Shown: positions 20,030-45,232 of the stretch, in pieces
Position numbering within the stretch: the first letter of the stretch is position 1
Layout: the number at the start of each line of letters is the position of its first letter
From: Candidatus Gastranaerophilales bacterium
GTDB taxonomy: Bacteria > Cyanobacteriota > Vampirovibrionia > Gastranaerophilales > Gastranaerophilaceae
Reading direction: 5' to 3'
NCBI GenBank assembly: GCA_944323425.1
Contig: CALUSL010000007.1
Location: 1-64,000 of the forward strand
DNA length: 64,000 nt
Position numbers and translations under genes: made by a program
The notes under the pieces: generated by a model
The model's database searches: none
What the model saw: the letters and a program-made list of their open reading frames with translations, nothing else
Told to the model about the DNA's origin: nothing

Positions 20030-21274
20030 ATGAAAATTTATAATTACGAAAACTTAAACGAGGATTTCTTTAGAAATATTCCATTTGAAACAATTACATC
20101 CGTAAATGAAATTATTTCTGACGTTAAAAAGAATGGAGACATTGCCGTTTTTAAGTATTCGCAACAATTCGGAGATGGAGTTCTAAATCGTTTAAAGGTC
20201 TCCAAATCAGAGATAGAAGAGGCATATAAAAACGTAGATGAGAACGCGATTTTCGCAATAAAAACAGCAATAAAAAATGTACGGGAGTTTGCGACAAAGC
20301 AGCTTGAGTGTTTAAACAATCTTGATACTAATGTATCCGGCTTGAGGCTCGGTCATCGTGTTATTCCTTTAAACTCTGCAGGGTGCTATATACCGGGAGG
20401 CAATTATCCTCTGCCCAGCACTGCTGTAATGACTATTGTTCCGGCAAAAGTTGCAGGGGTGGAAAGAGTTGTTGCATGTTCTCCGAAAATAAAAGATGTA
20501 ACTATTGTTGCCTGTGATTTGGCGGGAGCAGACGAAATATATCGTGTGGGCGGGGTACAGGCGGTAGCCGCAATGGCATACGGTACAGAAACAATCTGTC
20601 CTGTTGATAAAATAGTCGGACCGGGTAACAAATTCGTAACAGCTGCTAAAAAACAGGTTTACGGGGATTGTGGTATAGATTTTCTTGCCGGTCCGTCAGA
20701 GGTCCTTATAATTGCCGATGAAAGTGCAAATCCTGAATTTGTTGCAGCAGATATGCTGGCACAGTGTGAACATGACAGAGATGCAAGAGCGTATCTTGTT
20801 TGTTTTTCAGAGGGTTTTGCAAATGAAGTTAAAAAAATAGCTTATAGATATTTAAAAACGCTTTCTACTGCTGATATAGCAGAAGCTTCTTTTGAAAAAT
20901 CCTGTGCGGTGATTGTTGATACATTACAGCAGGCAATTCTAATTTCTGAAAAACGTGCGCCTGAACATCTTGAGCTCTGTTTTAGAAATGCTGAACAATA
21001 TATTAACAGTTTTAAAAATTATGGTTCATTGTTTGTCGGCAATTATTCTGCTGAGGTTTTTGGTGATTATTGTGCTGGTACAAATCATACACTGCCTACA
21101 AACATGGTTGCGAGATATTCCGGCGGTTTGAGTGTATTTGATTTTGTTAAAATTCAAACTTATCAGGCTGCGGATAGTAATAACGCACAGAGACTTATTC
21201 CCTGTGCGTCAAAACTTGCTTATATGGAAGGTTTGTCAGCTCATAAGCTTGCTGCTGATATCAGACTGGACTAG
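20030..21274 (+). CDS. hisD: histidinol dehydrogenase
   Basis: 414 residues, the last two steps of histidine synthesis with zinc and NAD. CYIPGGNYPLPSTAVMT, VGPGNKFVTAAKKQVYG, DFLAGPSEVLIIAD, AQCEHDRDA (zinc ligands), the catalytic RAPEHLEL and GTNHTLPT are all present. Length fits. No other his gene is in the window, so it is a dispersed member. It is probably co-transcribed with rnpA. The stop overlaps the convergent membrane protein gene by 4 bases. Confidence 0.95.
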   Translation: MKIYNYENLNEDFFRNIPFETITSVNEIISDVKKNGDIAVFKYSQQFGDGVLNRLKVSKSEIEEAYKNVDENAIFAIKTAIKNVREFATKQLECLNNLDTNVSGLRLGHRVIPLNSAGCYIPGGNYPLPSTAVMTIVPAKVAGVERVVACSPKIKDVTIVACDLAGADEIYRVGGVQAVAAMAYGTETICPVDKIVGPGNKFVTAAKKQVYGDCGIDFLAGPSEVLIIADESANPEFVAADMLAQCEHDRDARAYLVCFSEGFANEVKKIAYRYLKTLSTADIAEASFEKSCAVIVDTLQQAILISEKRAPEHLELCFRNAEQYINSFKNYGSLFVGNYSAEVFGDYCAGTNHTLPTNMVARYSGGLSVFDFVKIQTYQAADSNNAQRLIPCASKLAYMEGLSAHKLAADIRLD

Positions 21275-22029
21275 TATGAGCTGTCATCCCATTTTTTTGC
21301 ATATATATCTGCCATTCCGTAAGCATTTACAAAACCGAGTACAATTGATACATATTGCATTATAGCAAATATAAAATTAAGAGCCGGCGGAATCTGTCCT
21401 GTCATAATCAAATTTGTAAAATTAAAACCGAGTAATGTTGCAATTAAAAACAAGATAATAGCAACACTCAGACCGCAAATGAATATTCTGAACCATAAAG
21501 AAATTGCATCAAACCAGAAAAGTCTGAAGAATTTTACTAAGATTGACAAATTATAAAGTCCTTCTGTTTTAAATTCTTTTGAGTAGGCTACTTGAGCAAA
21601 TGCAATAAATGGTACTACCGCCAGATATATAAAAATTCCAAGGATTGGTATAGCAATTACAATTGCCAATAACAGTGAATATAGCATCCAGACTATAATT
21701 AAGACAAAGGCTCTGCCTGTAATTTTGAACGGAAGTATGTCAAATTCAGGCAAAATATCAAATCCAAGCGGTTTCCCTTCTTCTTCAAATCTGTTGTGCA
21801 TTATTATACAGTTATACCCGAAACTGTAGATGGTTAGAACTAACCCGTAGATTATTGGTATTGCACTTAAAGCTAAGAGCCCTCCTATATCAGCAGGAGA
21901 GGAGACAGAAGATGATGAAGGCGCTTGTAAAATAACGCCCAAAAATGCTAATACAAACCAGCAGATGTGTTTTACAACTGCTCCTTCTCCGCTATAAAGT
22001 TTTTTTATGGTTGCTAAAACTCCAGCCAT
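21271..22029 (-). CDS. polytopic membrane protein, DUF4013-like
   Basis: 252 residues with about six hydrophobic segments (around 20-38, 47-70, 105-145, 170-205, 215-245), and a charged loop FEEEGKPLGFDILPEFDILPF between the first pair and the rest. This layout resembles DUF4013 membrane proteins, which have no known function. The ATG has AGAGGAT-like sequence upstream. No partner is evident; the neighbouring TPR gene on the same strand is 85 bases upstream. Confidence 0.6.
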   Translation of the reverse strand: MAGVLATIKKLYSGEGAVVKHICWFVLAFLGVILQAPSSSSVSSPADIGGLLALSAIPIIYGLVLTIYSFGYNCIIMHNRFEEEGKPLGFDILPEFDILPFKITGRAFVLIIVWMLYSLLLAIVIAIPILGIFIYLAVVPFIAFAQVAYSKEFKTEGLYNLSILVKFFRLFWFDAISLWFRIFICGLSVAIILFLIATLLGFNFTNLIMTGQIPPALNFIFAIMQYVSIVLGFVNAYGMADIYAKKWDDSSY

Positions 22030-22114: not shown

Positions 22115-23164
22115 TTAGTTTTTGTTATTTTGTCCTCTGAATGTATTTAGCTCCGGAAGTTGTTCTTTAATCGTTTTTTCGGGGGAAAGCGGTTTGATAT
22201 CGATTGTTTTTTCTTCCACAGGCGATTCAGGAATAATAAGAGATTCTGCCGGTGCTTGTGTCGAGGCAGGAATAACATCAGGACATATATATTCTAAATC
22301 AATAACAAACTCTCTATCTTCCGGATTTATTATTAAATCGGAGAGGGAGGTCATATCGTTTTCATCATAAGGATATAAATCGTTGAGGTATAAGGGTTGA
22401 TTTGCAATGTAATATGCTTTGAAAATGGCGTCTTCCATTCTTTTGTCACCGAAGAGGATAGCGTTAACTTCGTCCGGTATCGGTTCCATTTTTTTCTTGT
22501 TTTCTTCTATTTTCTTCCGGTATGCTTCGTAATCCGTTTTTATCAAATCAAGACCGGCAAGTCTTGCTGCGGCTTCTTTTGACTTCGGGTTTATTTTTAG
22601 AGCATTTTGGTAGTGCACTTTTGCTTTTTCCGGTGCATCCAGTTTTTCGTATGTGACACCCAGTTTGTAGTTTGTCCAGAAATTATTTTTGTATCCGTGA
22701 GTATATGCATGAAGATAAAAATCTACTGCTTTTGCAAATTCTCCGTCTTTAAAAAAAGTTTCGCCAAAATAATATGTAACTTTCGGGTTATTTTCATTTA
22801 TATTTAGAGCTATAGAAAGGGCATTTTTTGCATCTCTTATGTGGTTTTCATAAAGAGCAATTCTTGCTTTTCCCACAAGTGCATCTGTATTTGATTTATC
22901 AGCACGTGACGCCTGATAATAAAAATATTTTGCAGCAGTAAGGTATTTTTGTTCGTCGGACTTTGTTTTATTTTTGATTGAATTGAAATATCTAAGAATT
23001 TTGTCTGCCTGCATGCAGTATTGTTTTGACGCTTCTTTAGGGTCACCGTTTTCGAATGATATTTCGCCGTGCCAGAAATCATTGTTTGCTGCCCGGGCAA
23101 TGTTATATCCGTTAATACCAATTAGAAATGAACAAATAATAAACACTGTGTAAAATTTTTTCAT
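22115..23164 (-). CDS. exported TPR protein
   Basis: 349 residues from ATG 23164 (MKKFYTVFIICSFLIGINGY, then NIARA as likely signal peptide end). In-frame ATG 23170 and TTG 23173 are alternatives. TPR-like repeats occupy about 40-220 (DALVGKARIALYENHIRDAK, KVTYYFGETFFKDGEFAKAV, NYKLGVTYEKLDAPEKAKVH, then YQNALKINPKSKEAA). The C-terminal 90 residues are Pro/Glu-rich and low-complexity. Probably periplasmic. Divergent from the nuoJ-like gene across 123 AT-rich bases. No function can be assigned. Confidence 0.75.
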   Translation of the reverse strand: MKKFYTVFIICSFLIGINGYNIARAANNDFWHGEISFENGDPKEASKQYCMQADKILRYFNSIKNKTKSDEQKYLTAAKYFYYQASRADKSNTDALVGKARIALYENHIRDAKNALSIALNINENNPKVTYYFGETFFKDGEFAKAVDFYLHAYTHGYKNNFWTNYKLGVTYEKLDAPEKAKVHYQNALKINPKSKEAAARLAGLDLIKTDYEAYRKKIEENKKKMEPIPDEVNAILFGDKRMEDAIFKAYYIANQPLYLNDLYPYDENDMTSLSDLIINPEDREFVIDLEYICPDVIPASTQAPAESLIIPESPVEEKTIDIKPLSPEKTIKEQLPELNTFRGQNNKN

Positions 23165-23287
23165 AACCATCAAAAATAAAATTTAATCTTAATAATTCAC
23201 AACATATTATATTATATCATCTTTAAAATATGATATAAATAATATAGACAAACTAACGGAAATAAACAACAATAGGAAGCGTCAAAA

Positions 23288-23806
23288 TTGGTTAATGCAG
23301 AGGCAGTTTATTTTTATATTTATGCGTTGATACTGATTGTCAGTGCAGTGGGCGTTGTTTTTTCTCCCCGTATGTTTCTGTCTTTTTGTGCATTTTTTTG
23401 TACGCTGTTATTTTCTTCTTGCATATACGGACTGTTGAATGCCGGTTTTATGGCTCTGTTTCAGTTCATTTTGTGCGGATTATTTCTTTGCATAATGCTG
23501 ATGCTGATATTGAAAAAAATCACAATCTGGACTCTGCCTTTGAAAGTTGCATCTGTGAGAAAAATTGTTTTGTCATCTGTTGCTCTAGTTATATTTGGAA
23601 TTTTTTCATATTTATATGTTAGTTTTGAATTTGGCGGAGTCATCGGAGAATTTTTTGATTTTATAAAAGAAAAATCAGTTGATATTGTTGATTTTTCCGA
23701 CTTTATGTTTTCTATCCATCTCGTAATAATAATAACTTTAGTAATGTGTGTTATGCTCAGGAATATTTATTTGACGAAGAACAATACGGAGGAGACTGAT
23801 GACTGA
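23288..23806 (+). CDS. NADH-quinone oxidoreductase subunit J-like protein
   Basis: 172 residues, five hydrophobic helices and little else, matching the size and topology of NuoJ (ND6-like), a complex I membrane-arm subunit. VFSPRMFLSFCAFFCTLLFSSCIYGLLNAGFMALFQFILCG matches the NuoJ helix 2-3 region. The start is TTG with AGGAAG eight bases upstream. It overlaps the next gene by 8 bases. No nuoA-I or nuoH lies upstream; the neighbour is a divergent TPR gene. Confidence 0.75.
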   Translation: MVNAEAVYFYIYALILIVSAVGVVFSPRMFLSFCAFFCTLLFSSCIYGLLNAGFMALFQFILCGLFLCIMLMLILKKITIWTLPLKVASVRKIVLSSVALVIFGIFSYLYVSFEFGGVIGEFFDFIKEKSVDIVDFSDFMFSIHLVIIITLVMCVMLRNIYLTKNNTEETDD

Positions 23807-24125
23807 AGGATTTTTTGATGTCGGGCTGCTTCACTATCTGATTCTTGCTCTGGTTCTTTTTATTGTCGGTATGCTGGGCGTTATCGTTTCCAGAAATATG
23901 CTCAGAATCGTAATGTCGCTTTTGGTAGTGTCGATAGCTGTTGTTATAAATTTTCTGGCATTTGGCAGCTTTTGTAACAGCACTTTAAAGTATGCAAATA
24001 TAATGTGTATATTGATAACTGTGATGACAGTGCTTCAGATAACAGGTGCTTTTGCTTTATTTTTGAAAGTTTATCATGCAAACGAATATCTTGATGTTGA
24101 AAAAATTAAGGACAAGGAGAACTAA
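23799..24125 (+). CDS. NADH-quinone oxidoreductase subunit K-like protein
   Basis: 108 residues with three membrane helices, the NuoK/MrpC fold. IVGMLGVIVSRNMLRIVMSLLVVSIAVVINFLAF aligns with the GL..RRNL....GLE...NA core of NuoK. The two membrane glutamates that NuoK normally uses for proton transfer (Glu36 and Glu72 in E. coli) have no acidic counterpart: Leu42 in helix 2, and Leu79/Gln80 in helix 3, by hand alignment. A charged 20-residue tail follows. It starts inside the nuoJ-like gene and its stop overlaps the next start. Confidence 0.75.
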   Translation: MTEGFFDVGLLHYLILALVLFIVGMLGVIVSRNMLRIVMSLLVVSIAVVINFLAFGSFCNSTLKYANIMCILITVMTVLQITGAFALFLKVYHANEYLDVEKIKDKEN

Positions 24126-25288
24126 TGGAATTTTGTGTTGAAAATATCAATCTGGTGGTAATTCTGCCCTTTCTTATGAGTCTGGTGCTTGCTGCAAATG
24201 CTGTAACAATGAGCAGAATTGACAAAAAGCCGATGTTTATTTTGAGTTTGATATGTGCTTTTATTTGTTTTGTTTTCAGCGGATTTGCTCTTTTTTATGC
24301 ACTAAGAACTAATATTAACGTAGAAAGCAGCTTTTTGTGGCTTGCGAATGATAATATAAATTTTTATCTGGGAACTTTAATAGACAGAACGTCCGGAATT
24401 TTTCTATGCGTTGCTGCAATTTTGAATATTCTCGTCCAAATTTTTGGATGGCAAAAATTAAGAGCGGGATATTCATATAACAGACTTCTTTTTTATCAAA
24501 ATTTATTTATATTCGGTTTGTTCGGGATATTTCTGGCTTCTAATATTTTGCAGTCATATATGTTTTGTGAAGTATTGGGAGTTGCATCATACCTTTTGAT
24601 AAATTTTGATTTTTCCAATAAAGAAGAATCAAAGGCTGCAATAAAATCGTTTATTTTTAACAGGATAGGTGATTTGACTCTTCTGTTTTGTGTTTTGACT
24701 ATTCTGTATTTTTCGGTAACTTACAACCAGCTATGGGATAGTACAAACCTCGCGTTTTCAAATATGATTCAGGTTGCGGAGAGCATAAATTCGCTTATGA
24801 GCGAGCCTTTATTCGTTGGATTTTGCTCTATATTGATTTTTGTCGTATTGATGAAATTTATGCAGGCATTTATTTATTTGACTTTTGTGTCAAAAATTAC
24901 GTCTTCAGAGTCCAGAGTTATATTGTTTCAGAATGCATTGATTTTTCTGTCAGGTTTATTTCTCCTTTTGAGGTTTACGCCGTTTTTCGTGAATCTTGGT
25001 GGAAATTGGATATGGACAATACTGATAATCATATTTCTGTTTATGTTCATAGGCTTTTTAAACAAAATATTTATTCCTGTATGCAGGGCGTTCGGATGGT
25101 TTGAAAAGTATATTGTGGATACATTTTTGAATTTTGTAGAACTTGTTATTCGATTTTTCTCTTTTCTATGCTGCCGTTTCCAGGGAGGCGGTGTTCAGTC
25201 CTATATAATATATTCTTTTATAGGGGTGTTGTTAATACTTGGATTTATTCTTCTGTTTTATATTACTGTTTCCAATATAGGAGTTTAG
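24125..25288 (+). CDS. shortened NADH-quinone oxidoreductase subunit L-like protein
   Basis: 387 residues, against about 600 or more for NuoL. The N-terminal part follows NuoL: IDRTSGIFLCVAAILNILVQ, then FCEVLGVASYLLINF (Glu149 matching the helix 5 Glu), SFIFNRIGDLTLLF and VVLMKFMQAF (Lys244 matching the helix 7 Lys). After about residue 285 it jumps to the NuoL C-terminus: NKIFIPVCRAFGWFEKYIVDTF and QSYIIYSFIGVLL. Helices 9-14 or so, with their central Lys, are therefore missing, with no stop or frameshift. Possible alternatives are Mrp- or hydrogenase-type subunits. Confidence 0.75.
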   Translation: MEFCVENINLVVILPFLMSLVLAANAVTMSRIDKKPMFILSLICAFICFVFSGFALFYALRTNINVESSFLWLANDNINFYLGTLIDRTSGIFLCVAAILNILVQIFGWQKLRAGYSYNRLLFYQNLFIFGLFGIFLASNILQSYMFCEVLGVASYLLINFDFSNKEESKAAIKSFIFNRIGDLTLLFCVLTILYFSVTYNQLWDSTNLAFSNMIQVAESINSLMSEPLFVGFCSILIFVVLMKFMQAFIYLTFVSKITSSESRVILFQNALIFLSGLFLLLRFTPFFVNLGGNWIWTILIIIFLFMFIGFLNKIFIPVCRAFGWFEKYIVDTFLNFVELVIRFFSFLCCRFQGGGVQSYIIYSFIGVLLILGFILLFYITVSNIGV

Positions 25289-25289
25289 T

Positions 25290-26813
25290 ATGAATTTTCT
25301 GTCACTTATAACGTTGATATTTGCACCGATAGCCGCGGCTATCCTGATTTTGATACCAAAATTTCCTAACCATCAGGTCAAGGTGAGACGTTTCGCCAAG
25401 GCTTTTGCTAGTTTGCATTTTATTTATGCAATGCTGTTTCTTGTATTTTTTGATACCGGATTGTATGGAATGTCTTATGAACAAGAGTTGACTTTTTTCA
25501 ATATAAGCTGGCTTAAATCAATGGGGATAAGTGCAAAATTTGCCGTAGACGGAATATCTTTACTTCTTGTTATTCTGACTGCTTTTATTGTGCTGATAAC
25601 TTTTGTTTTGAGCAAAATGCATATTCGAACAAAGCACAAACTGTATTATTCAATGGTATTTCTGTTTGAATCGGCAATACTTGGTATTTTGTGCGCAAAA
25701 GATATGTTTATGTTTTTTGTATTCTGGGAATTGTCGCTTATACCGTTGTATTTTTTGATTTCACAATGGGGAAATTCAGAGGCAAGAAGTTCTGCAATGA
25801 AGTTTACTCTTGCTTCTTTTACAGCCAATGTTTTTCTGTTTTTTGCAATGCTTATCCTGTATTATTATAATTTTGCGGTAAGCAATGTTTTAACAGCAAA
25901 TATAGATTCATTGAGTATGGATGAAAGTATTTATCCTCTGTGGTTTCAGATTTTTGTATTTGTTAATTTTCTTATCGGGTTTGTTGTGCGGGTTCCATTC
26001 GTATTTTTCCATTCCTGGTATCCGGATATACAAAATAAAGCAAGTGCTCCTGTAAATATACTGGTTGCAGGAACTTTACTCAGTACCGGAGTGTATGGAT
26101 TAATAAGATTCAATATGCAAATATTTCCTGAAGTGTTCAAGCTTTTTGCTCCTGTATTGATGTGCTGGGGTGTTGTAAATATAATATATGCAGGTGCATT
26201 GTCTATTATTCAGCCTGAAATAAAGAAAATAGCTGCATACGCCCAGATATCAATGATGGGATTCGTTATGATAGGGCTGGCATGTTTGAATCAGGTTGGA
26301 TTTAACGGGGCTGTATTTATGACACTGTCTCTATCTATTGTTTTTACTGCATTATATGCAGTGATTTCTTCGGTTCAGTTCAGAACAAAGACTACTTATT
26401 TAACAGCATTAGGCGGTCTTGGGCAGGTAATGCCAAAATGTATGTATTTTTCATTGATAATTTGTTTTGGAGCAATAGGTGTACCTTTTTTGATTACTTT
26501 TGCGCCGAAATTAATGATATTATCGGGTGCAATACTATCAAATCTTGAAGAAGAATTGATGGTAAAAATTGTTGCAATAATAGGACTCCTTGCGATAATT
26601 TTTGCTTCTGGTTATATAATGTATCTGTTCTATAAAGTATTTTGTTCGGTATTGCTGGAACAGTGGAAAAGACTTAAGGATCTAAGTCCTCAGGAAATGA
26701 GTGTTATGTCTGCACTCTGTCTTGTTATAATATATTTCGGAGTGTATCCGATGTCGGTTATACAGATTTATCAATCAGTTTCGAATTTCTTATTAGATAT
26801 ATTACAGGTGTAA
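25290..26813 (+). CDS. NADH-quinone oxidoreductase subunit M-like protein
   Basis: 507 residues, full length for NuoM, about 14 membrane helices. MFFVFWELSLIPLYFLISQWG (Glu147) is the helix 5 motif. VVRVPFVFFHSWYPDIQNKASAP and LVAGTLLSTGVYGLIRF are helices 7-8. By hand alignment three channel residues are changed: Lys234 to Arg234, Lys265 to Ser265 and Glu407 to Lys407 (TFAPKLMILSG). In complex I this subunit is an antiporter-like proton channel. One base after the L-like gene and 11 before the N-like gene. Confidence 0.85.
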   Translation: MNFLSLITLIFAPIAAAILILIPKFPNHQVKVRRFAKAFASLHFIYAMLFLVFFDTGLYGMSYEQELTFFNISWLKSMGISAKFAVDGISLLLVILTAFIVLITFVLSKMHIRTKHKLYYSMVFLFESAILGILCAKDMFMFFVFWELSLIPLYFLISQWGNSEARSSAMKFTLASFTANVFLFFAMLILYYYNFAVSNVLTANIDSLSMDESIYPLWFQIFVFVNFLIGFVVRVPFVFFHSWYPDIQNKASAPVNILVAGTLLSTGVYGLIRFNMQIFPEVFKLFAPVLMCWGVVNIIYAGALSIIQPEIKKIAAYAQISMMGFVMIGLACLNQVGFNGAVFMTLSLSIVFTALYAVISSVQFRTKTTYLTALGGLGQVMPKCMYFSLIICFGAIGVPFLITFAPKLMILSGAILSNLEEELMVKIVAIIGLLAIIFASGYIMYLFYKVFCSVLLEQWKRLKDLSPQEMSVMSALCLVIIYFGVYPMSVIQIYQSVSNFLLDILQV

Positions 26814-26824
26814 AGCAAAAAATT

Positions 26825-28273
26825 ATGAATGGAATTTTGAATGACATATTGAACGCATATTTGCCGGAGAGCATTATTATAGTATTTATAATATTTAGTC
26901 TTATAGCCTCTTTGTTTTTTAACACATCTTTGTATAAACTTTCAAAGTGGTTTACGCTTCTCGGAATAACAATGGCACTTGGCGCAACTTTCTTTTTGCC
27001 TATAGATCCCGATAATATGGAAATTTTTGCGTTTAACGGTGAAATTGTTTCAAATATTTATACAATATTTTTTAAGATTCTGATTTTAATGAGTGCTTTT
27101 TTCCTTACATTGTTATCGAGAAACCTGATTCGGGAAAAACGTGACAGGGCGTTTGAATATTTCACTGTATTTTTATGTGCAGTCTTGTTTGCTATGTGCA
27201 CGGTTAGCGTGACAGATTTTGCCGGTTTGTTTTTTTCTATAGAGGGGCTTGGATTGTGCAGTTATTTGCTTTTGAATTTTTCTAAGACTCCTGATTCAAA
27301 GCAGTTGAGCTTTGGATATTTTGTTCAGGGAAACGTTGCAGCGCTTTTGTTCCTGTTCGGTTTTTCATTTCTGTATGGATTGTGCGGGGAAATAGGGTTT
27401 GCTGCAGTCGGAGATTATCTTGCTCAGACCAATTCTTTTATCCTGCTTACATTCTCTTTAATTTTAATGTTGAGCATATTTCTGTTCAATCTCGGTATTG
27501 TTCCGTTTTCGAGCTGGGTTGCGGATACCTTTGAGGGGGCAAGTTATCCTATAGCTGCTTTTATGTCTACTATTCCGGTGCTGGCTGGTTTTGGTATATT
27601 GTCCAGACTTTTGCTGGTGTTTATAAATTATTTGCCGGTTTTGAAAATTTTGTTTGTTTGTATTGCGATGTTGACAATACTTTTCAGTTCATTGAGTGCA
27701 ATACGACAAACAACAGTAAAAAGGCTGATGGCATATAGTATGAGCGTACAATCTGCGATAATGCTGCTGGGACTCGGAGTCTTTTCTGTTTTTAGTCTTT
27801 CGGGTGTTTTGTTTTATATTCTTTGCTATATGTTTGTAAATACCGGGGTATGGGCTGCCATTATTCTGTTTTATGATTCTTGTAAACTCAACAATATCGA
27901 GGATTATAACGGTTTGATATTTCACAGACCATATTATGTAATTGCTTTTACGACGGTGTTGATTGCGCTTGCCGGACTTGCGCCAACCAGCGGATTTGTC
28001 GCAAAATTATATCTGTTTTCTGCTGTGGCCAGATCCGGATTTTTGTTTTTGCCGTTTCTTATTATTTCAATGCTGGCATGTGTAATTATGATTTTTGCAT
28101 ATTGGAAACTTATTCGTTCAATGTTTAGGCGTGTAAATACTGAAGTCTCTATTGATACAAAAATTGTTTCTTCAAAATTCATTCTGTATGCTTGCGCACT
28201 TGCATCTGTTTTACTCTGTATATTTGCAGACAAAATAATTCAGCTCTGTCAATCAGCAGCGTATTATTTATAA
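26825..28273 (+). CDS. NADH-quinone oxidoreductase subunit N-like protein
   Basis: 482 residues, about 14 membrane helices, NuoN size. SIEGLGLCSYLLLNF (Glu140) matches the helix 5 Glu, and APTSGFVAKLYLFSA (Lys394) the helix 12 Lys. The helix 7 motif reads IFLFNLGIVPFSSWVADTFEGAS, with Asn222 where Lys217 is expected. Helix 8 reads STIPVLAGFGILSRL, with Val252 in place of Lys247 (hand alignment). It ends the block; the convergent fliR gene begins two bases later, so no peripheral-arm genes follow. Confidence 0.85.
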   Translation: MNGILNDILNAYLPESIIIVFIIFSLIASLFFNTSLYKLSKWFTLLGITMALGATFFLPIDPDNMEIFAFNGEIVSNIYTIFFKILILMSAFFLTLLSRNLIREKRDRAFEYFTVFLCAVLFAMCTVSVTDFAGLFFSIEGLGLCSYLLLNFSKTPDSKQLSFGYFVQGNVAALLFLFGFSFLYGLCGEIGFAAVGDYLAQTNSFILLTFSLILMLSIFLFNLGIVPFSSWVADTFEGASYPIAAFMSTIPVLAGFGILSRLLLVFINYLPVLKILFVCIAMLTILFSSLSAIRQTTVKRLMAYSMSVQSAIMLLGLGVFSVFSLSGVLFYILCYMFVNTGVWAAIILFYDSCKLNNIEDYNGLIFHRPYYVIAFTTVLIALAGLAPTSGFVAKLYLFSAVARSGFLFLPFLIISMLACVIMIFAYWKLIRSMFRRVNTEVSIDTKIVSSKFILYACALASVLLCIFADKIIQLCQSAAYYL

Positions 28274-28274
28274 T

Positions 28275-29057
28275 TTAGAAAATTTTAGCAAAAGACAGAA
28301 AATAGTCGGTTATTACATTAAATATTATCGGCATTATCCATATAAGTATTGCTGCGCCGAGAACCGGTTTAAACAGAAAGCTGAGCTGGAAAACGTTTAC
28401 CTGAGGGGCGGTTTTTGAAATTATACCGAGAATCAAATCCTGACCGAGTGTCGCAAGAAGTACAGGCGAGGCTATTTGAAGTCCTACGTATAGAACATTG
28501 GCTGTTAATTTTATCAGGTATTCCATATTGACAAGCTGATCTAAGGGAATGGACGTAGCATATACGGGAAAAATTTCAAATGTTCTCAAAAGTGCAGCTA
28601 TAAGCCAGTACATTCCTCCTACATGAAGAAAGATAATTAGTGCAAAAATAGCAAAAAAGTTTCCCATGATAGAAGTTTGGGATGATGTGGTAGGATCGAG
28701 TACTGTGGCTGACGAAAGACCCATTTGCATATTTATCATATCTCCGCCTGCAGAAATAGCAGAGGTTATGCATTGCGCAATAAAACCAAGGATTGCTCCT
28801 GCGACAAAATTTAAAATCAACCCTAATATTAGCGCAGAACCTGATGGAACTACCGTGGGTTTTATAATAAGAGAGAGGATGATTGTTAAAATTAAAGCAA
28901 ACGAAAGTTTAACCATCCCTATGATTTCTTTTCTGTTTAATACCGGTGCAAAACGCATAAAGCCGAGTATTCGCGCAAAAATAAATATACCAACACCGAG
29001 TGCGCTGTTGAATTCTGGAAAATATTTAGGAAAGGTATTGATTATTGTATCTAGCAT
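28275..29057 (-). CDS. fliR: flagellar export apparatus protein FliR
   Basis: 260 residues with six to eight membrane helices. FIFARILGFMRFAPVLNRKEI at the start, AGGDMINMQMGLSSATVLDPTTSSQTSIMGNFF (the most conserved FliR region) and the LLATLGQDLILGIISKTAPQVNVFQL segment confirm FliR, part of the type III export gate with FliP and FliQ. It is last in the fliM/N-O-P-Q-X-R run. The ribosome site is weak. No FlhB fusion. Confidence 0.94.
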   Translation of the reverse strand: MLDTIINTFPKYFPEFNSALGVGIFIFARILGFMRFAPVLNRKEIIGMVKLSFALILTIILSLIIKPTVVPSGSALILGLILNFVAGAILGFIAQCITSAISAGGDMINMQMGLSSATVLDPTTSSQTSIMGNFFAIFALIIFLHVGGMYWLIAALLRTFEIFPVYATSIPLDQLVNMEYLIKLTANVLYVGLQIASPVLLATLGQDLILGIISKTAPQVNVFQLSFLFKPVLGAAILIWIMPIIFNVITDYFLSFAKIF

Positions 29058-40197: not shown

Positions 40198-40884
40198 ATG
40201 TCAGAAGGTCACTGGATAGCAAACATAGGTAATTTTAGTTTTAACGTTGATACGCTGATTACCATGTGGATTACGATGGCAATACTTATACTGTTTGCCT
40301 TTTTAGCAACGAGAAAACTTTCTATTATTCCTACAAAAATGCAATCTATTGCTGAGGGTATACTTCGCTTCTTCGGTGGTCTTACGGAATCTATGATAGG
40401 AAAAACAGGAGCGAAGCATGTACCGTTGATTGCTTCTCTGTTTCTGTTCATTGTTACCGCAAACCTTATGGGACAGCTGCCATGGAAAATTTATCATCTT
40501 AAACAGGGTGAGCTGGCTTCTCCTACAAATGACATTAATATGACGGCAGGAATGGCAATTCTTGTCTTAATATATTATGTATATCAAGGTGTAAGAGCAA
40601 AAGGCATCAGATACTTTTTGCGCAGTTTTAATCCAATAGATATTGTTGAAGCAATAGTTGAGCTTGCAGAAATGGTTATTCGTCCTTTCACTCTGGCTCT
40701 CCGACTTTTTGCCAATATCCTAGCAGGTGAATTGCTGGTTGCGGCTTTTGTTGGTATTTTTGCATATCTTCTTCCGCTTCCGATAATGTTATTTGAAGTT
40801 TTTGTAGCTTTTGTTCAGGCACTTGTATTTACGATGCTGGCTACAGCATATGTTGCTCTCGCTACGGCGGAGGATGAACACTAG
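40198..40884 (+). CDS. atpB: ATP synthase F0 subunit a
   Basis: 228 residues with five to six membrane helices. The essential channel Arg is in FTLALRLFANILAGELLV (about residue 170). FVAFVQALVFTMLATAYVALAT is the last helix. First gene of the cluster a-c-b'-b-delta-alpha-gamma. GAGGA lies ahead of the ATG. No atpI is upstream; a leftward pseudopilin is the neighbour. Length is normal for the short cyanobacterial type. Confidence 0.95.
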   Translation: MSEGHWIANIGNFSFNVDTLITMWITMAILILFAFLATRKLSIIPTKMQSIAEGILRFFGGLTESMIGKTGAKHVPLIASLFLFIVTANLMGQLPWKIYHLKQGELASPTNDINMTAGMAILVLIYYVYQGVRAKGIRYFLRSFNPIDIVEAIVELAEMVIRPFTLALRLFANILAGELLVAAFVGIFAYLLPLPIMLFEVFVAFVQALVFTMLATAYVALATAEDEH

Positions 40885-40935
40885 AAAGATTTTGTTGAAA
40901 CGTACAAGCTAAATCAGATAAAAAAGGAGAAAATT

Positions 40936-41187
40936 ATGGCAGTAGAACAATTGACAACAGTAACAGGCAGTCTTGCTGATATCGGTGCAGGTCTTGCAAT
41001 CGGTTTCGGTGCAATCGGTGCTGGTTTAGGTATCGGTGTTGCGACAAAAGGACTTTTGGAAGCTATTTCAAGACAACCTGAAATTGCCGGTAAAGCGGTA
41101 GGTTTCTTCCTTTTGGGTGCAGCTCTTGCAGAAGCTTGTGCTATTTACGGTTTGTTTATCGCTATGAAATTGAGCGGTATGATTTAG
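40936..41187 (+). CDS. atpE: ATP synthase F0 subunit c
   Basis: 83 residues, a two-helix hairpin. Helix 1 is Gly-rich (GAIGAGLGIGVATKG), the loop is ISRQPEIAG, and helix 2 has the ion-binding Glu in AALAEACAIYGLFIA. The Gln and Ser/Thr partners typical of sodium-binding rings are not seen beside it, which points to proton coupling (inference). AAGGAG precedes the ATG. Confidence 0.96.
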   Translation: MAVEQLTTVTGSLADIGAGLAIGFGAIGAGLGIGVATKGLLEAISRQPEIAGKAVGFFLLGAALAEACAIYGLFIAMKLSGMI

Positions 41188-41209
41188 TTCTTTTTTTGAG
41201 GCAGTTTAA

Positions 41210-41686
41210 ATGGAATTCAATGCAACATTATTAGTTTCATCAATAAGTTTTGTAATTTTTGTTATCATTATGAACCAGATATTGTATAAGCCAATATTGG
41301 CTATAATGCAACAACGTAAGGATTATATTGACAACAACAAATTGGCTGTTGATGAACATAAAAAACACGCAAAGGAGCTTCTCGATAATAAAGATAAAAA
41401 AATTGTCGAGGCTAATAAGAAATCACGAGATATTGTTGCAGCGACCGTTGAATCCTTAAAAGAAGAAGAATCAAGAATGCTCGGAAATACGAGAGCCGAG
41501 ATGAACAGCTATTTTAACGATAAAAAACGGATTATAGCGGATGAAAAGAATAATACTGTAAACAATCTGGCTTTTAATGTTGCGGATATTGCAAACAATA
41601 TTACAACAAAACTGGTCGGCTACGGTGTAGCTTTTGACCCGTTGAGCGAAGATGAAGTTAAAGAGGTGATTAGAAAGAATGCTTGA
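41210..41686 (+). CDS. atpF': ATP synthase F0 subunit b' (b-type stator, first copy)
   Basis: 158 residues: one N-terminal membrane helix (FNATLLVSSISFVIFVIIMNQILYKPI) then a long charged coiled coil (KPILAIMQQRKDYIDNN, HKKHAKELLDNKDKK). This is the stator subunit; a second, different b gene follows, overlapping by 8 bases. Two unlike b subunits (b and b') are the cyanobacterial/chloroplast arrangement. Confidence 0.9.
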   Translation: MEFNATLLVSSISFVIFVIIMNQILYKPILAIMQQRKDYIDNNKLAVDEHKKHAKELLDNKDKKIVEANKKSRDIVAATVESLKEEESRMLGNTRAEMNSYFNDKKRIIADEKNNTVNNLAFNVADIANNITTKLVGYGVAFDPLSEDEVKEVIRKNA

Positions 41687-42182
41687 TTTAAGTTGGAATA
41701 ATATATTACATTCGAATGCGATTAACTTCGTTATAATGGTGGCTTTCTTTCTTTTCATCGCTTATAAGATGAAAGTTTCGCAGGCTGTTGAAAATCACAG
41801 AGCTTCAATACAAAAAACTATTGAAGATTCTGATCTTCTGAAGAAGGATTCTGCTGAAGAGTTACAAAAAGTTGAAAAATCTTTGGAAAATCTTCCGCAG
41901 GAACTTGAGGGTATTTTGAAAAATGCCGAGCAGACGGCAAAGGCTTATGAATCAAAAACAAAGGCTGAAATAGACAAACTTGTTCAGTCAATAAAAGACA
42001 ATACGGAAAAACAGATTAGCGCTGAAGAAAAGCATACGAATTCTGTTGTACTGAAAAATGCCGGTAATGCATCTGTAGAGGTTGCGCAGAAGCAGGTTAT
42101 GAAAGCTTTGGAACGGGACAATTCTCTCCATCGCAAATTTATTAGTGATTTTATTAATGAAATAGACGGGCTTGAAGTTTAA
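41679..42182 (+). CDS. atpF: ATP synthase F0 subunit b
   Basis: 167 residues: membrane helix (SNAINFVIMVAFFLFIAYKM) followed by a coiled-coil stalk (VENHRASIQKTIEDSDLLKKDS...). It begins inside the b' gene and its stop overlaps the atpH start. Together with b' it forms the peripheral stalk. Confidence 0.92.
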   Translation: MLDLSWNNILHSNAINFVIMVAFFLFIAYKMKVSQAVENHRASIQKTIEDSDLLKKDSAEELQKVEKSLENLPQELEGILKNAEQTAKAYESKTKAEIDKLVQSIKDNTEKQISAEEKHTNSVVLKNAGNASVEVAQKQVMKALERDNSLHRKFISDFINEIDGLEV

Positions 42183-42733
42183 TGACAACAAATATAGACA
42201 AAAGGTTAATATCATTATCAAGAAGATATTCAGATGCAATTTTAGATATTGCAAAAGAAAAAAATGAACTGGACAATGTTTTTAGTGATTTGAAAAATGT
42301 TGTCACGGTTTATGATTATTCTGATGAGATGAGAGAGTTTCTTGCTCATCCGGCTATATCTCATAAGGACAAAAAAGAGCTTATCCAATCTGTTTTTGAG
42401 GGGAAAATCTCTACTGTAACATTGAACCTTTTGTATACTCTTGTTGATAAAAACAAATTTAACCTTATTGACACAATTCTGTTTTGTTATGAAAATTCTC
42501 TCAATGAGGCTAAAAATATATTAAAGGTCGATGTTATTTCTGCTGTGGAAATAGACAATGACCTTAAAGAAAATCTGAAATTGAAGCTTGAATCGAAACT
42601 GAAAAAATCAGTTGCTTTGAATTATGAAATCAGACCGGAAATTATTGCAGGTCTTATACTAAAAATCAAAGACAAAACTATAGACGGTTCGATGGCTCAT
42701 AAGCTTCAGGCTATGAAAAAGCAATTAGCGTAA
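42182..42733 (+). CDS. atpH: ATP synthase F1 subunit delta
   Basis: 183 residues. The N-terminal helical domain ([41 protein letters not shown]) and the C-terminal signature [29 protein letters not shown] are those of delta/OSCP, which links stator to F1. Start overlaps the b stop by one base. Length is usual. Confidence 0.95.
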
Positions 42734-42752
42734 ATATATAAGGAAGAACAAA

Positions 42753-44273
42753 ATGGCAACAATCAGACCTGATGAAATTACATCAATCATCAAAGCCAAA
42801 ATCGAAAACTATAACTCAACAATGGAAGTGTCCAATGTTGGCTCTGTTCTCGAAGTTGGTGACGGTATTGCTCGTGTTTACGGCTTGAGAAATGCAATGG
42901 CAAACGAGCTTGTTGAATTTGATGACGGACAAGGAACACTCGGTATTACACTAAACCTTGAAGAAGACAACGTTGGTGTTGTTATTCTCGGTGAATACAA
43001 GCAAATTAAAGAAGGAATGACTGTAAAAACTACAGGAAGAATTGCTTCTGTTCCTGTCGGTGACGGACTTATCGGTAGAATTATCAGCCCTACAGGCAGA
43101 CCTGTTGATGGAAAGGGTGATATTCATTATGAAAAAACCAGACCTGTTGAGCGTGTTGCTCCGGGTATTGTTACCAGAAAGTCAGTTCATGAACCGCTTC
43201 AGACAGGTTTGACTGCTATTGACGCGCTTACTCCTATCGGTCGCGGACAAAGAGAGTTGATTATCGGCGACAGACAGACCGGTAAGACTGCTATTGCTAT
43301 TGATACAATCATTAACCAGAAGGGGCAGGATGTAATTTGTATTTATGTAGCAATCGGACAAAAAACATCAACTGTTGCTCAGCTGGCTAAAAAACTTGAA
43401 GATTATGGTGCAATGGATTATACAATTATCGTATCGGCTACTGCTGATGAATCTGCACCGCTTCAGTATATTGCTCCGTTTGCAGGTGTTGCTATTGCGG
43501 AAGAATTTATGGAACAGGGTAAGGCTGTTCTTATTGTTTATGATGATCTTACAAAACATGCTCAGGCTTATCGTGCAATGAGTTTGCTTTTGAGAAGACC
43601 GCCGGGACGTGAAGCTTATCCTGGTGATGTATTCTACTTGCATTCCAGATTGCTTGAAAGAGCTTGTAAGTTAAATGATAAGCTCGGTGGCGGAAGTATT
43701 ACAGCTCTGCCTATTATTGAGACACAGGCAGGTGACGTTTCAGCTTATATTCCGACTAACGTAATTTCTATTACAGACGGTCAGATATTCCTAGAAACCG
43801 GTCTTTTTAACTCCGGTATAAGACCTGCGATAAATGCCGGTATTTCTGTATCCCGTGTTGGCGGTGCTGCTCAGACTAAGGCTATCAAACAGGTTGCAGG
43901 TAAATTGAGACTTGACCTTGCTCAATTCAGAGAATTGGAAGCATTTGCTCAATTCGCTTCAGATCTTGATAAAGCTACTCAGGATCAGTTGTTAAGAGGT
44001 CAAAAACTGACTGAAGTATTGAAACAGCCTCAATATTCTCCTCTCAGTGTTGCTCAGCAGGTTTCAATTCTTTTCGCTGCAAACGAAGGTATTCTGGATG
44101 ATGTTCCAAATACGAAAATTGCTCAGTTCAAAAAAGAATGGTTTGAATATTTTGATTCAAATCTTTCAGATCTTAGCGCACGATTAAATGCCGGATCTGC
44201 ATTGAGCGATGAGGATAAAGTTGCGCTGAAAGAACGTTTGGAAAACTTTAAGTCATCTGTTTTTGCAGCATAA
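42753..44273 (+). CDS. atpA: ATP synthase F1 subunit alpha
   Basis: 506 residues. [11 protein letters not shown] near the start, the Walker [16 protein letters not shown] (about 170-184), VIVYDD-like [16 protein letters not shown] and the signature [17 protein letters not shown] are intact. Alpha forms the catalytic hexamer with beta, which is not in this window and should lie elsewhere with epsilon. AAGGA ribosome site. Confidence 0.97.
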
Positions 44274-44296
44274 ACTAAATACAAAAAGGACGAACA

Positions 44297-45232
44297 ATGC
44301 CGAATTTATTGGATATAAAAGATAGAATAAACAGTATTAAAAACACTCAGAAAATAACACGAGCAATGAAAATGGTTGCTGCGGCTAAGGTTAAAAAATC
44401 AGAAAACAGAGTTAAAGCCGGCAGACCGTTTTCTAAGGCTCTTGTTAGTGCATTCAAAAGAGTACTTGACTCGGTTGATTGTGATGCATCTGCTGCAGGT
44501 TTGAAAATAGAAAGAGCTATTGACAATTATCCTGCGCTTATGAAAAAAAGAGAGTTAAAAACTGCGGGTCTGTTGATGGTAACATCCAATAAGGGGCTTG
44601 CCGGCGCGTATAATGCTAATGTCATCAGATATACACTGAAAAAGATTCAGGAGTTGAAAGCTCAAAACATCGATGCTAAGCTTTATATTGTCGGTCAGAA
44701 AGGTCTTTCCGGAATTAGAAGAAAGGCTCAGGAAGCCGGCGTTGAAATCGTAAAAACATATACAAAAATTTCACAGGAGCCGAACGCTTCAAATGCTATA
44801 GTGATAGCAGAGGATATGGCGCAAGACTTTGTTGAAAACAAAATAGACAGTATTGAAATTGTGACAACAAGATTCAAAAATATGATGTCATATTCGGTCG
44901 AAGACTGGAAGATTCTTCCGTTGGATAAACTCGATGATTATGAGGACGGAGAAGAGCATCATGGCATTGATCCGTTAATGATTTTTGAGCCGGATATGAA
45001 TCATATTTTGCAGAAAATTGTGCCGATGTATATTACGAATATCATTTATCAGGCGCTGCTTGAAGCAGTGGCAAGTGAGCTTGCTGCCAGAATGACAGCT
45101 ATGTCTTCAGCGACAAGTAATGCTGATGATATGATAAGAAGTCTTACGATTGACTTCAATAAGGCAAGACAGTTCGCTATCACTCAGGAGATACTCGAAG
45201 TCGTTTCGGGTGCTGATGCACTTAAAAACTAA
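44297..45232 (+). CDS. atpG: ATP synthase F1 subunit gamma
   Basis: 311 residues, the rotating shaft. The N-terminal coiled coil IKDRINSIKNTQKITRAMKMVAAAK and the C-terminal ALLEAVASELAARMTAMSSATSNADDMI are diagnostic. The middle (RFKNMMSYSVEDWKILPLD to IFEPD) is short here. The roughly 35-residue regulatory insert of photosynthetic cyanobacterial gamma subunits does not appear to be present. Last ATP synthase gene of the cluster. Confidence 0.95.
   Translation: MPNLLDIKDRINSIKNTQKITRAMKMVAAAKVKKSENRVKAGRPFSKALVSAFKRVLDSVDCDASAAGLKIERAIDNYPALMKKRELKTAGLLMVTSNKGLAGAYNANVIRYTLKKIQELKAQNIDAKLYIVGQKGLSGIRRKAQEAGVEIVKTYTKISQEPNASNAIVIAEDMAQDFVENKIDSIEIVTTRFKNMMSYSVEDWKILPLDKLDDYEDGEEHHGIDPLMIFEPDMNHILQKIVPMYITNIIYQALLEAVASELAARMTAMSSATSNADDMIRSLTIDFNKARQFAITQEILEVVSGADALKN

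Follow-up and report, generated by a model that had tools for sequence, protein, structure and literature searches.

The 64,000-nucleotide window analyzed here (contig CALUSL010000007.1, positions 1 to 64,000) comes from a draft metagenome-assembled genome (MAG) of Candidatus Gastranaerophilales, 2.03 Mb in size. Gastranaerophilales, which include gut bacteria, are non-photosynthetic relatives of cyanobacteria. At 23288-28273 the window carries five intact open reading frames (ORFs) on the plus strand, of 172, 108, 387, 507 and 482 amino acids, which profile searches and alignment identify as homologues of NuoJ, K, L, M and N of complex I, in the canonical order J-K-L-M-N. The packing is operon-like, with overlaps of 8 bp (J/K) and 1 bp (K/L) and gaps of 1 bp (L-M) and 11 bp (M-N). 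Only the NuoM-like protein, which is 71-95% identical to that of named relatives, lies above its NCBIfam cut-off (TIGR01972), the matches of J, K, L and N being below theirs. An earlier note on this DNA, made from the sequence alone, had described a nuoJKLMN-like block with all frames intact, and this description is confirmed. The features are as follows.

22115-23173, minus strand: T, a secreted tetratricopeptide-repeat (TPR) protein, divergent to the nuo block (Pfam TPR; TPR fold by AlphaFold2, AF2); the start is likely the ATG at 23164.
23174-23287, no strand: T-J intergenic divergent promoter region, about 114-115 bp.
23288-23806, plus strand: NuoJ-like, 172 amino acids (NCBIfam NuoJ E=1.3e-4, below cut-off; position and alignment); Cys63 at the E. 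coli Tyr59 position.
23799-24125, plus strand: NuoK-like, 108 amino acids (Pfam PF00420 E=3.9e-11, above cut-off); E36 replaced by Leu42, E72 by Gln80.
24125-25288, plus strand: NuoL-like, half-size, 387 amino acids (Pfam PF00361 E=4.8e-11; alignments; AF2; Foldseek).
25007-25186, plus strand: L residues 295-354, predicted lateral (strap) helix (AF2, alignment).
25290-26813, plus strand: NuoM-like, 507 amino acids (TIGR01972, 361.7 bits against a cut-off of 263.8); K234 replaced by R, L244 by Y, H248 by Q, K265 by S, E407 by K; E144 and H241 kept.
26825-28273, plus strand: NuoN-like, 482 amino acids (TIGR01770 E=2e-71, below cut-off); K247 replaced by V252, K217 by N222; E140, D234, K299 and K394 kept.
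28275-29057, minus strand: fliR, convergent neighbour, outside the unit.

A divergent T followed by J-K-L-M-N was found in all 25 related loci fetched (L016-L040) and in three loci of genus g20 (L048, L082 and L083). The 28 short-L loci considered below belong to the genera g1, g6 and g20; K was missed in two of them owing to ORF choice. Only T-J-K-L-M-N is common to all three genera, the other flanks being different. The block had been taken earlier to be bounded by a divergent TPR gene and a convergent fliR. Both do adjoin it, but T belongs to the conserved unit, while fliR adjoins the unit only in the study genus and is not beside it in the other two. T and J lie 52-126 bp apart in those short-L loci for which the distance was computed, and 117 bp apart in the locus of G026, which was reduced independently. 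T has a signal-peptide-like N terminus, a TPR superhelix at residues 45-227 and a disordered tail (AF2, Pfam TPR), and in several of the family's full complex I operons it adjoins nuoA in the same divergent orientation. In the study genus, T is itself flanked by a gene (21271-22029, minus strand) for a 252-amino-acid membrane protein without family match, which evolves fast (56-62% identity within the genus). One record titled uncultured Clostridia (L036) also carries the T-J-K-L-M-N unit, with 71% identity in M, and is probably a misnamed MAG; among plasmid proteins, a search brought up nothing beyond ordinary NuoM-like matches.

The recurrence of the unit bears on whether the block could be an artefact of assembly or binning, the rest of nuo lying on a missing contig. 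The genome is a draft of 47 contigs, as such an artefact would need, but it is 99.85% complete, T adjoins J (about 115 bp) on the same contig, at the very place expected for nuoA-I, and the T-J junction recurs in the 27 other loci, a recurrence that refutes the artefact. We regard this explanation as scarcely credible.

The unit is further marked by the size of NuoL. The residue inventory of the earlier note was right in its residues, but overlooked that L is about half the expected length (387 instead of about 620 amino acids). In all 28 short-L sequences from the three genera L is 384-387 amino acids long, against about 612-650 in full complexes. By alignment and AF2, the deletion takes out transmembrane helices (TM) 9-15 and leaves TM1-8, the lateral helix and TM16 in place. 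E. coli positions 305-400 and further ones have no counterpart in the alignment, which picks up again in the lateral helix. The deletion junction is placed at about residues 300-313, and 28/28 lack the second antiporter-fold half with E. coli K305, H338, K342 and K399. L keeps E149, R180, D183 and K244; in TM7 the helix-breaking Pro is gone (P234 to F, 28/28), and so is the HTW/LPD motif. The AF2 model (28 sequences; predicted local distance difference test score, pLDDT, 78.6) shows TM1-8, an unbroken 60-residue helix (295-354) and a final TM (357-386), and its top Foldseek matches are NuoL/NdhF (E=1.5e-10). L is thus without its channel but retains the parts that strap the arm together.

For the proton path, one joint alignment was made of the short-L units, E. 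coli and 16 full complexes I of the same order. We call "wire" the middle and terminal conducting residues when all are protonatable (L K342/K399, M K265/E407, N K247/K395). The wire is intact in 47 of the 48 subunits of the 16 full complexes. The 28 short-L units have it intact in none of their 84 subunits. At the M K265 position the short-L units have N, A, S, C or I, and at the N K247 position V or P, so that the TM8 Lys is gone from both M and N in 28/28; the M E407 position holds K in 27 and R in one. In contrast, the ion pair between TM5 Glu and TM7 Lys/Arg is kept in L (28/28), in M (28/28, as Glu-Arg) and in N (24/28), and the claim that the helix 5 Glu is kept in L, M and N is confirmed on alignment to E. 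coli and to the family complexes. M also has Tyr for L244 in 27/28, Gln for H248 in 28/28 and Arg234 in 28/28. None of the 26 aligned short-L sequences retains Glu36 of K.

The substitutions that had been read by hand, Leu42 and Gln80 in K, Arg234, Ser265 and Lys407 in M, and Asn222 and Val252 in N, are all correct on this alignment, but do not carry equal weight. The K Glu72 position is non-Glu in 5 of the 16 full complexes and is therefore not diagnostic. Asn222 of N is nearly private to the study species, 26 of the 28 units retaining Lys there. In E. coli, M E407K keeps about 80% activity and K265A 35-55% (PMC9802314), so that these two changes alone are no proof of lost pumping. More severe effects are known for the sites of M L244 and H248, where L242A and H246F in P. 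denitrificans severely diminish catalysis (PMC9802314), and for NuoN K247A, which is severe in E. coli (PMC13073174). Also comparable are the isolated NuoM- and NuoL-type modules (Nqo13/Nqo12), which conduct protons in liposomes (Beghiah et al. 2024, PMC11496545). In these modules, breaking the TM5-TM7 ion pair raises proton conduction, and K235M (equivalent to M K265) or the terminal changes E377Q (Nqo13) and K385I (Nqo12, equivalent to L K399) block it (PMC11496545). Read against that work, the short-L units keep the pair that limits conduction and lack residues needed for it.

The same residues could also be read as a re-wired transporter, in which M and N serve as a secondary H+/cation channel or antiporter (Mrp-like) with a changed path through Arg234, Lys407, the TM5/TM7 pairs and N-Lys394. 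Lys407 (27/28), Arg234 (28/28) and the replacement of H248 by Gln (28/28) look like new constrained states rather than drift, M is the most conserved of the five genes and evolves more slowly than the others, proton conduction by isolated modules is on record (PMC11496545), and E407K and K265A retain activity in E. coli (PMC9802314). Such a path would, however, have to do without the TM8 Lys of both M and N and without the deleted channel of L, and the N-side input residues of M, L244 and H248, are replaced. Moreover, the genome holds no further PF00361 proteins, and the best family matches are to NuoL/M/N, not to Mrp. We consider this explanation unlikely.

The pattern of substitution within the block indicates that it is under selection. 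Between the study block and its nearest relative, dN/dS was 0.02 for M, 0.03 for N, 0.04 for L, 0.09 for K and 0.11 for J, as compared with 0.10 for hisD and 0.01 for fliP as flanking controls, all values being approximate since dS is high. A slow passive decay, in which a functionless relic drifts out of the genome, would fit the complete loss of nuo in other genera of the family, the faster evolution of J and K, the variability of the TM8 and His sites of M, and the absence of any preferential loss of charged sites. It does not agree with the low dN/dS (0.02-0.05) of L, M and N, with the constant length of L in 28 sequences from three genera, with the intact frames and gene order in 25/25 related loci fetched, or with the repeated survival of these five genes when the head was lost independently. 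Decay is already largely refuted and, in our judgement, very improbable; the block is not decaying, and the earlier statement to that effect is well supported by the intact frames, the length of L and the low L, M and N values.

Partners of the arm were sought in the genome by profile search only. The proteins matching PF00361 number exactly three genome-wide, namely L, M and N of the block. No NuoH (PF00146) was found genome-wide, the search controls giving matches, and there was likewise no NuoD or [NiFe] hydrogenase large subunit (PF00346, a profile that also picks up hydrogenase-type large subunits in relatives), no RnfD/NqrB (PF03116) and no DabA (PF10070) in the genome. NuoA, B, C and I are absent at the locus, a genome-wide search for these four not having been made. 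An MrpA-type subunit is also absent, L being only 387 amino acids long and the block holding the only PF00361 proteins of the genome. The description of the arm as isolated is therefore supported genome-wide for the partners tested (NuoH, NuoD, hydrogenase large subunit, Rnf/Nqr and DabA). As to the check proposed with it, for a nuoA-I/nuoH set or an Ech-like partner elsewhere, the result is negative, genome-wide for NuoH, NuoD and the hydrogenase large subunit, and at the locus for A, B, C and I.

Among 229 genomes of the family surveyed, a short L was found in 20, in the genera g1, g6 and g20, and in 0/20 of these was there a NuoD or NuoH of complex I type. Seven of the 20 encode a separate hydrogenase-type (group-4-type) NuoD/NuoH pair on other contigs, and the other 13, including the study genome, have no PF00346 or PF00146 protein. 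These counts bear on the possibility that the five proteins are the arm of an unrecognised electron-driven complex, to which a non-homologous or unlinked soluble partner docks, for instance a HydABC-type bifurcating hydrogenase with NuoE/F-like subunits. Besides the separate pairs in the seven genomes, several g6 loci speak for it by carrying downstream ORFs of 618 and about 594 amino acids that read as NuoF/HydB-like and hydrogenase-like. The HydABC-like neighbours are nevertheless absent beside the unit in g1 and g20, all three genera have only T-J-K-L-M-N in common, and a linking NuoB, D, H or I is missing, as is any PF00346 or PF00146 protein in the 13 genomes; Glu36 of the E-channel in K is lost, and no Rnf/Nqr was found. 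We consider such a complex quite improbable. Of the g6 neighbours themselves it may be recorded that in L018 (17800-20157) and similar loci there are three ORFs of 166, 618 and about 594 amino acids, HydABC-like by reading and a few kb downstream of the unit, of which only the two larger match the iron-sulphur NuoI profile.

Full nuo operons with the same gene order, often with the same T gene, exist in the same family, and headless sets are not confined to the short-L units. Other sets without a head keep a longer L: T with J-N in g24; A, H and J-N in the g19 members G105 and G129, A being cut off in G129; and A, H and J-N without B, C, D and I in g9 (L046/L075) and g17 (L047/L073/L074). The g9 and g17 sets consist of a membrane arm with its H anchor and no iron-sulphur or quinone-reducing subunits. 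In g52 (L071, L072, L084, L089 and L090) an extremely diverged J-K-L-M-N with long L and no head of complex I type was found, its place in the tree being uncertain. Genome G148 of g19 (L078; 19 kb fetched) has A, B, C, D, H and J-N and no NuoI; its NuoD is without the HPSTHG quinone-site segment, and its L, M and N already carry altered wire or ion-pair residues. From its sequence the G148 complex I is seemingly transitional. In a tree of M, N and L, G026 pairs with the full complex of G014 (support 99), G105 lies inside g19 among full and nearly full sets (support 100), and all short-L units fall into a single clade (support 100). A single clade of nine headless representatives was rejected (approximately unbiased test, p-AU 1.7e-5), indicating that the head was lost in at least three lineages. 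The number of losses may exceed three, since g9, g17, g52 and the short-L units diverge at deep branches that are long and not resolved. Our confidence is high as to the anatomy, the descent, the selection and the repeated loss of the head.

Based on these observations, we propose as the probable explanation a headless complex I, that is, a proton-tight, non-redox J-K-L-M-N arm kept as a scaffold or for regulation. Its ancestor was an 11-gene nuoABCDHIJKLMN operon, from which the electron-carrying and quinone-binding part was lost. The first half of L, together with the strap helix and TM16, could still hold J, K, M and N in one piece, so that an arm may still assemble. The wire is cut in all three antiporter-like subunits, by loss of the TM8 Lys in M and N and of the second channel half in L, while the retained TM5 Glu-TM7 Lys/Arg pairs would hold the modules closed. 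Such an arm most likely no longer pumps, and would survive in a proton-tight form with a structural or regulatory job, possibly in concert with T, the secreted TPR protein whose gene is divergent to the block. An open headless arm would drain the proton gradient used by ATP synthase and flagella, both of which are encoded in the window. The ATP synthase genes (40198-45232) are a, c, b, b', delta, alpha and gamma; as in cyanobacteria, there are two b-type subunits. In our reading the c subunit (40936-41187) is without the Na+-site Gln and the Thr/Ser beside Glu, and so looks H+-type, which would make a proton leak costly and says nothing direct about the arm. A sealed arm under strong selection is the simplest reading. 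From the residues and domains lost we infer proton tightness with moderate confidence, and a scaffold or regulatory task is plausible. The earlier suggestion of selection for another role is favoured by the lost wire residues, the kept ion pairs and the repeated headless sets, rather than proven.

Several observations weigh against this explanation. Conserved charged sites are not preferentially lost when compared with other conserved sites (kept 21/32 versus 127/180, Fisher p=0.68); the plug may therefore reflect passive loss of constraint and not selection against leak, and the statement that most proton-channel residues are lost is right for the conducting sites (wire 0/84), but does not hold for charged sites in general. 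In 27/28 units the terminal position of M has been changed to a Lys that is functional in E. coli, and N retains its terminal Lys, so that some conduction is possible. Retention of the ion pair is not universal, the pairs also being lost in the headless sets of G105, g9 and g52. Finally, homologues of T persist in genomes without nuo genes, so that T need not depend on the arm and may have a role of its own; as an obligate partner of the arm, T is weakened as a candidate. A further-reaching form of the proposal, in which a redox-independent complex evolved repeatedly by shedding its head and became a new machine in the membrane, linked to the periplasmic TPR protein and serving as scaffold, gated ion path or voltage/pH sensor, is possible, and we advance it only tentatively, at somewhat less than even chances.

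The literature describes Gastranaerophilales genomes as devoid of respiratory chains (PMC5877343; also Di Rienzi et al., in the passage of PMC4040986 that cites them), while an 11-subunit complex I (NDH-1) is known from Gastranaerophilales and other Melainabacteria (PMC8235220). With that complex the block shares the order J-K-L-M-N, homology, the TPR neighbour and the nearest relatives in the tree. It differs in the headless locus without A, B, C, D, H and I, in the absence of TM9-15 from L, and in the loss of the wire residues of L, M and N and of the E-channel Glu36 of K. With no NuoH, no NuoD and no intact axis, it is a headless derivative and not a complex I. The Mrp Na+/H+ antiporter likewise has NuoL/M/N-type antiporter-like folds and no redox head, but the block has a half-size L without the MrpA extension and NuoM/N matches, in a genome without other PF00361 proteins. 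Group 4 [NiFe] hydrogenases (Ech/Hyf/Ehr) have antiporter-like membrane subunits and occur elsewhere in some relatives, whereas the study genome has neither a large subunit nor a NuoH-like anchor. The DAB CO2-concentrating complex (DabA/DabB) is a precedent for a NuoL-like subunit outside complex I, but there is no DabA in the study genome. An identity with Mrp, group 4 hydrogenase or DAB is thus rejected by the missing MrpA-type subunit, large subunit and DabA, respectively. In the literature searched we found no description of a head-free membrane arm under selection. A close parallel is the laboratory-dissected Nqo12/Nqo13 (PMC11496545), which also lack a redox head and in which the same residues define leak and conduction; unlike them, the headless set is natural, comprises five genes, and has lost the conducting residues rather than keeping them intact. 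The isolated-module experiment has in effect been run repeatedly by nature within one bacterial family, along a seemingly transitional series in which I and the quinone motif of D are lost, then only A, H and J-N remain, and then only J-N. The family also offers natural variation at the very residues under debate.

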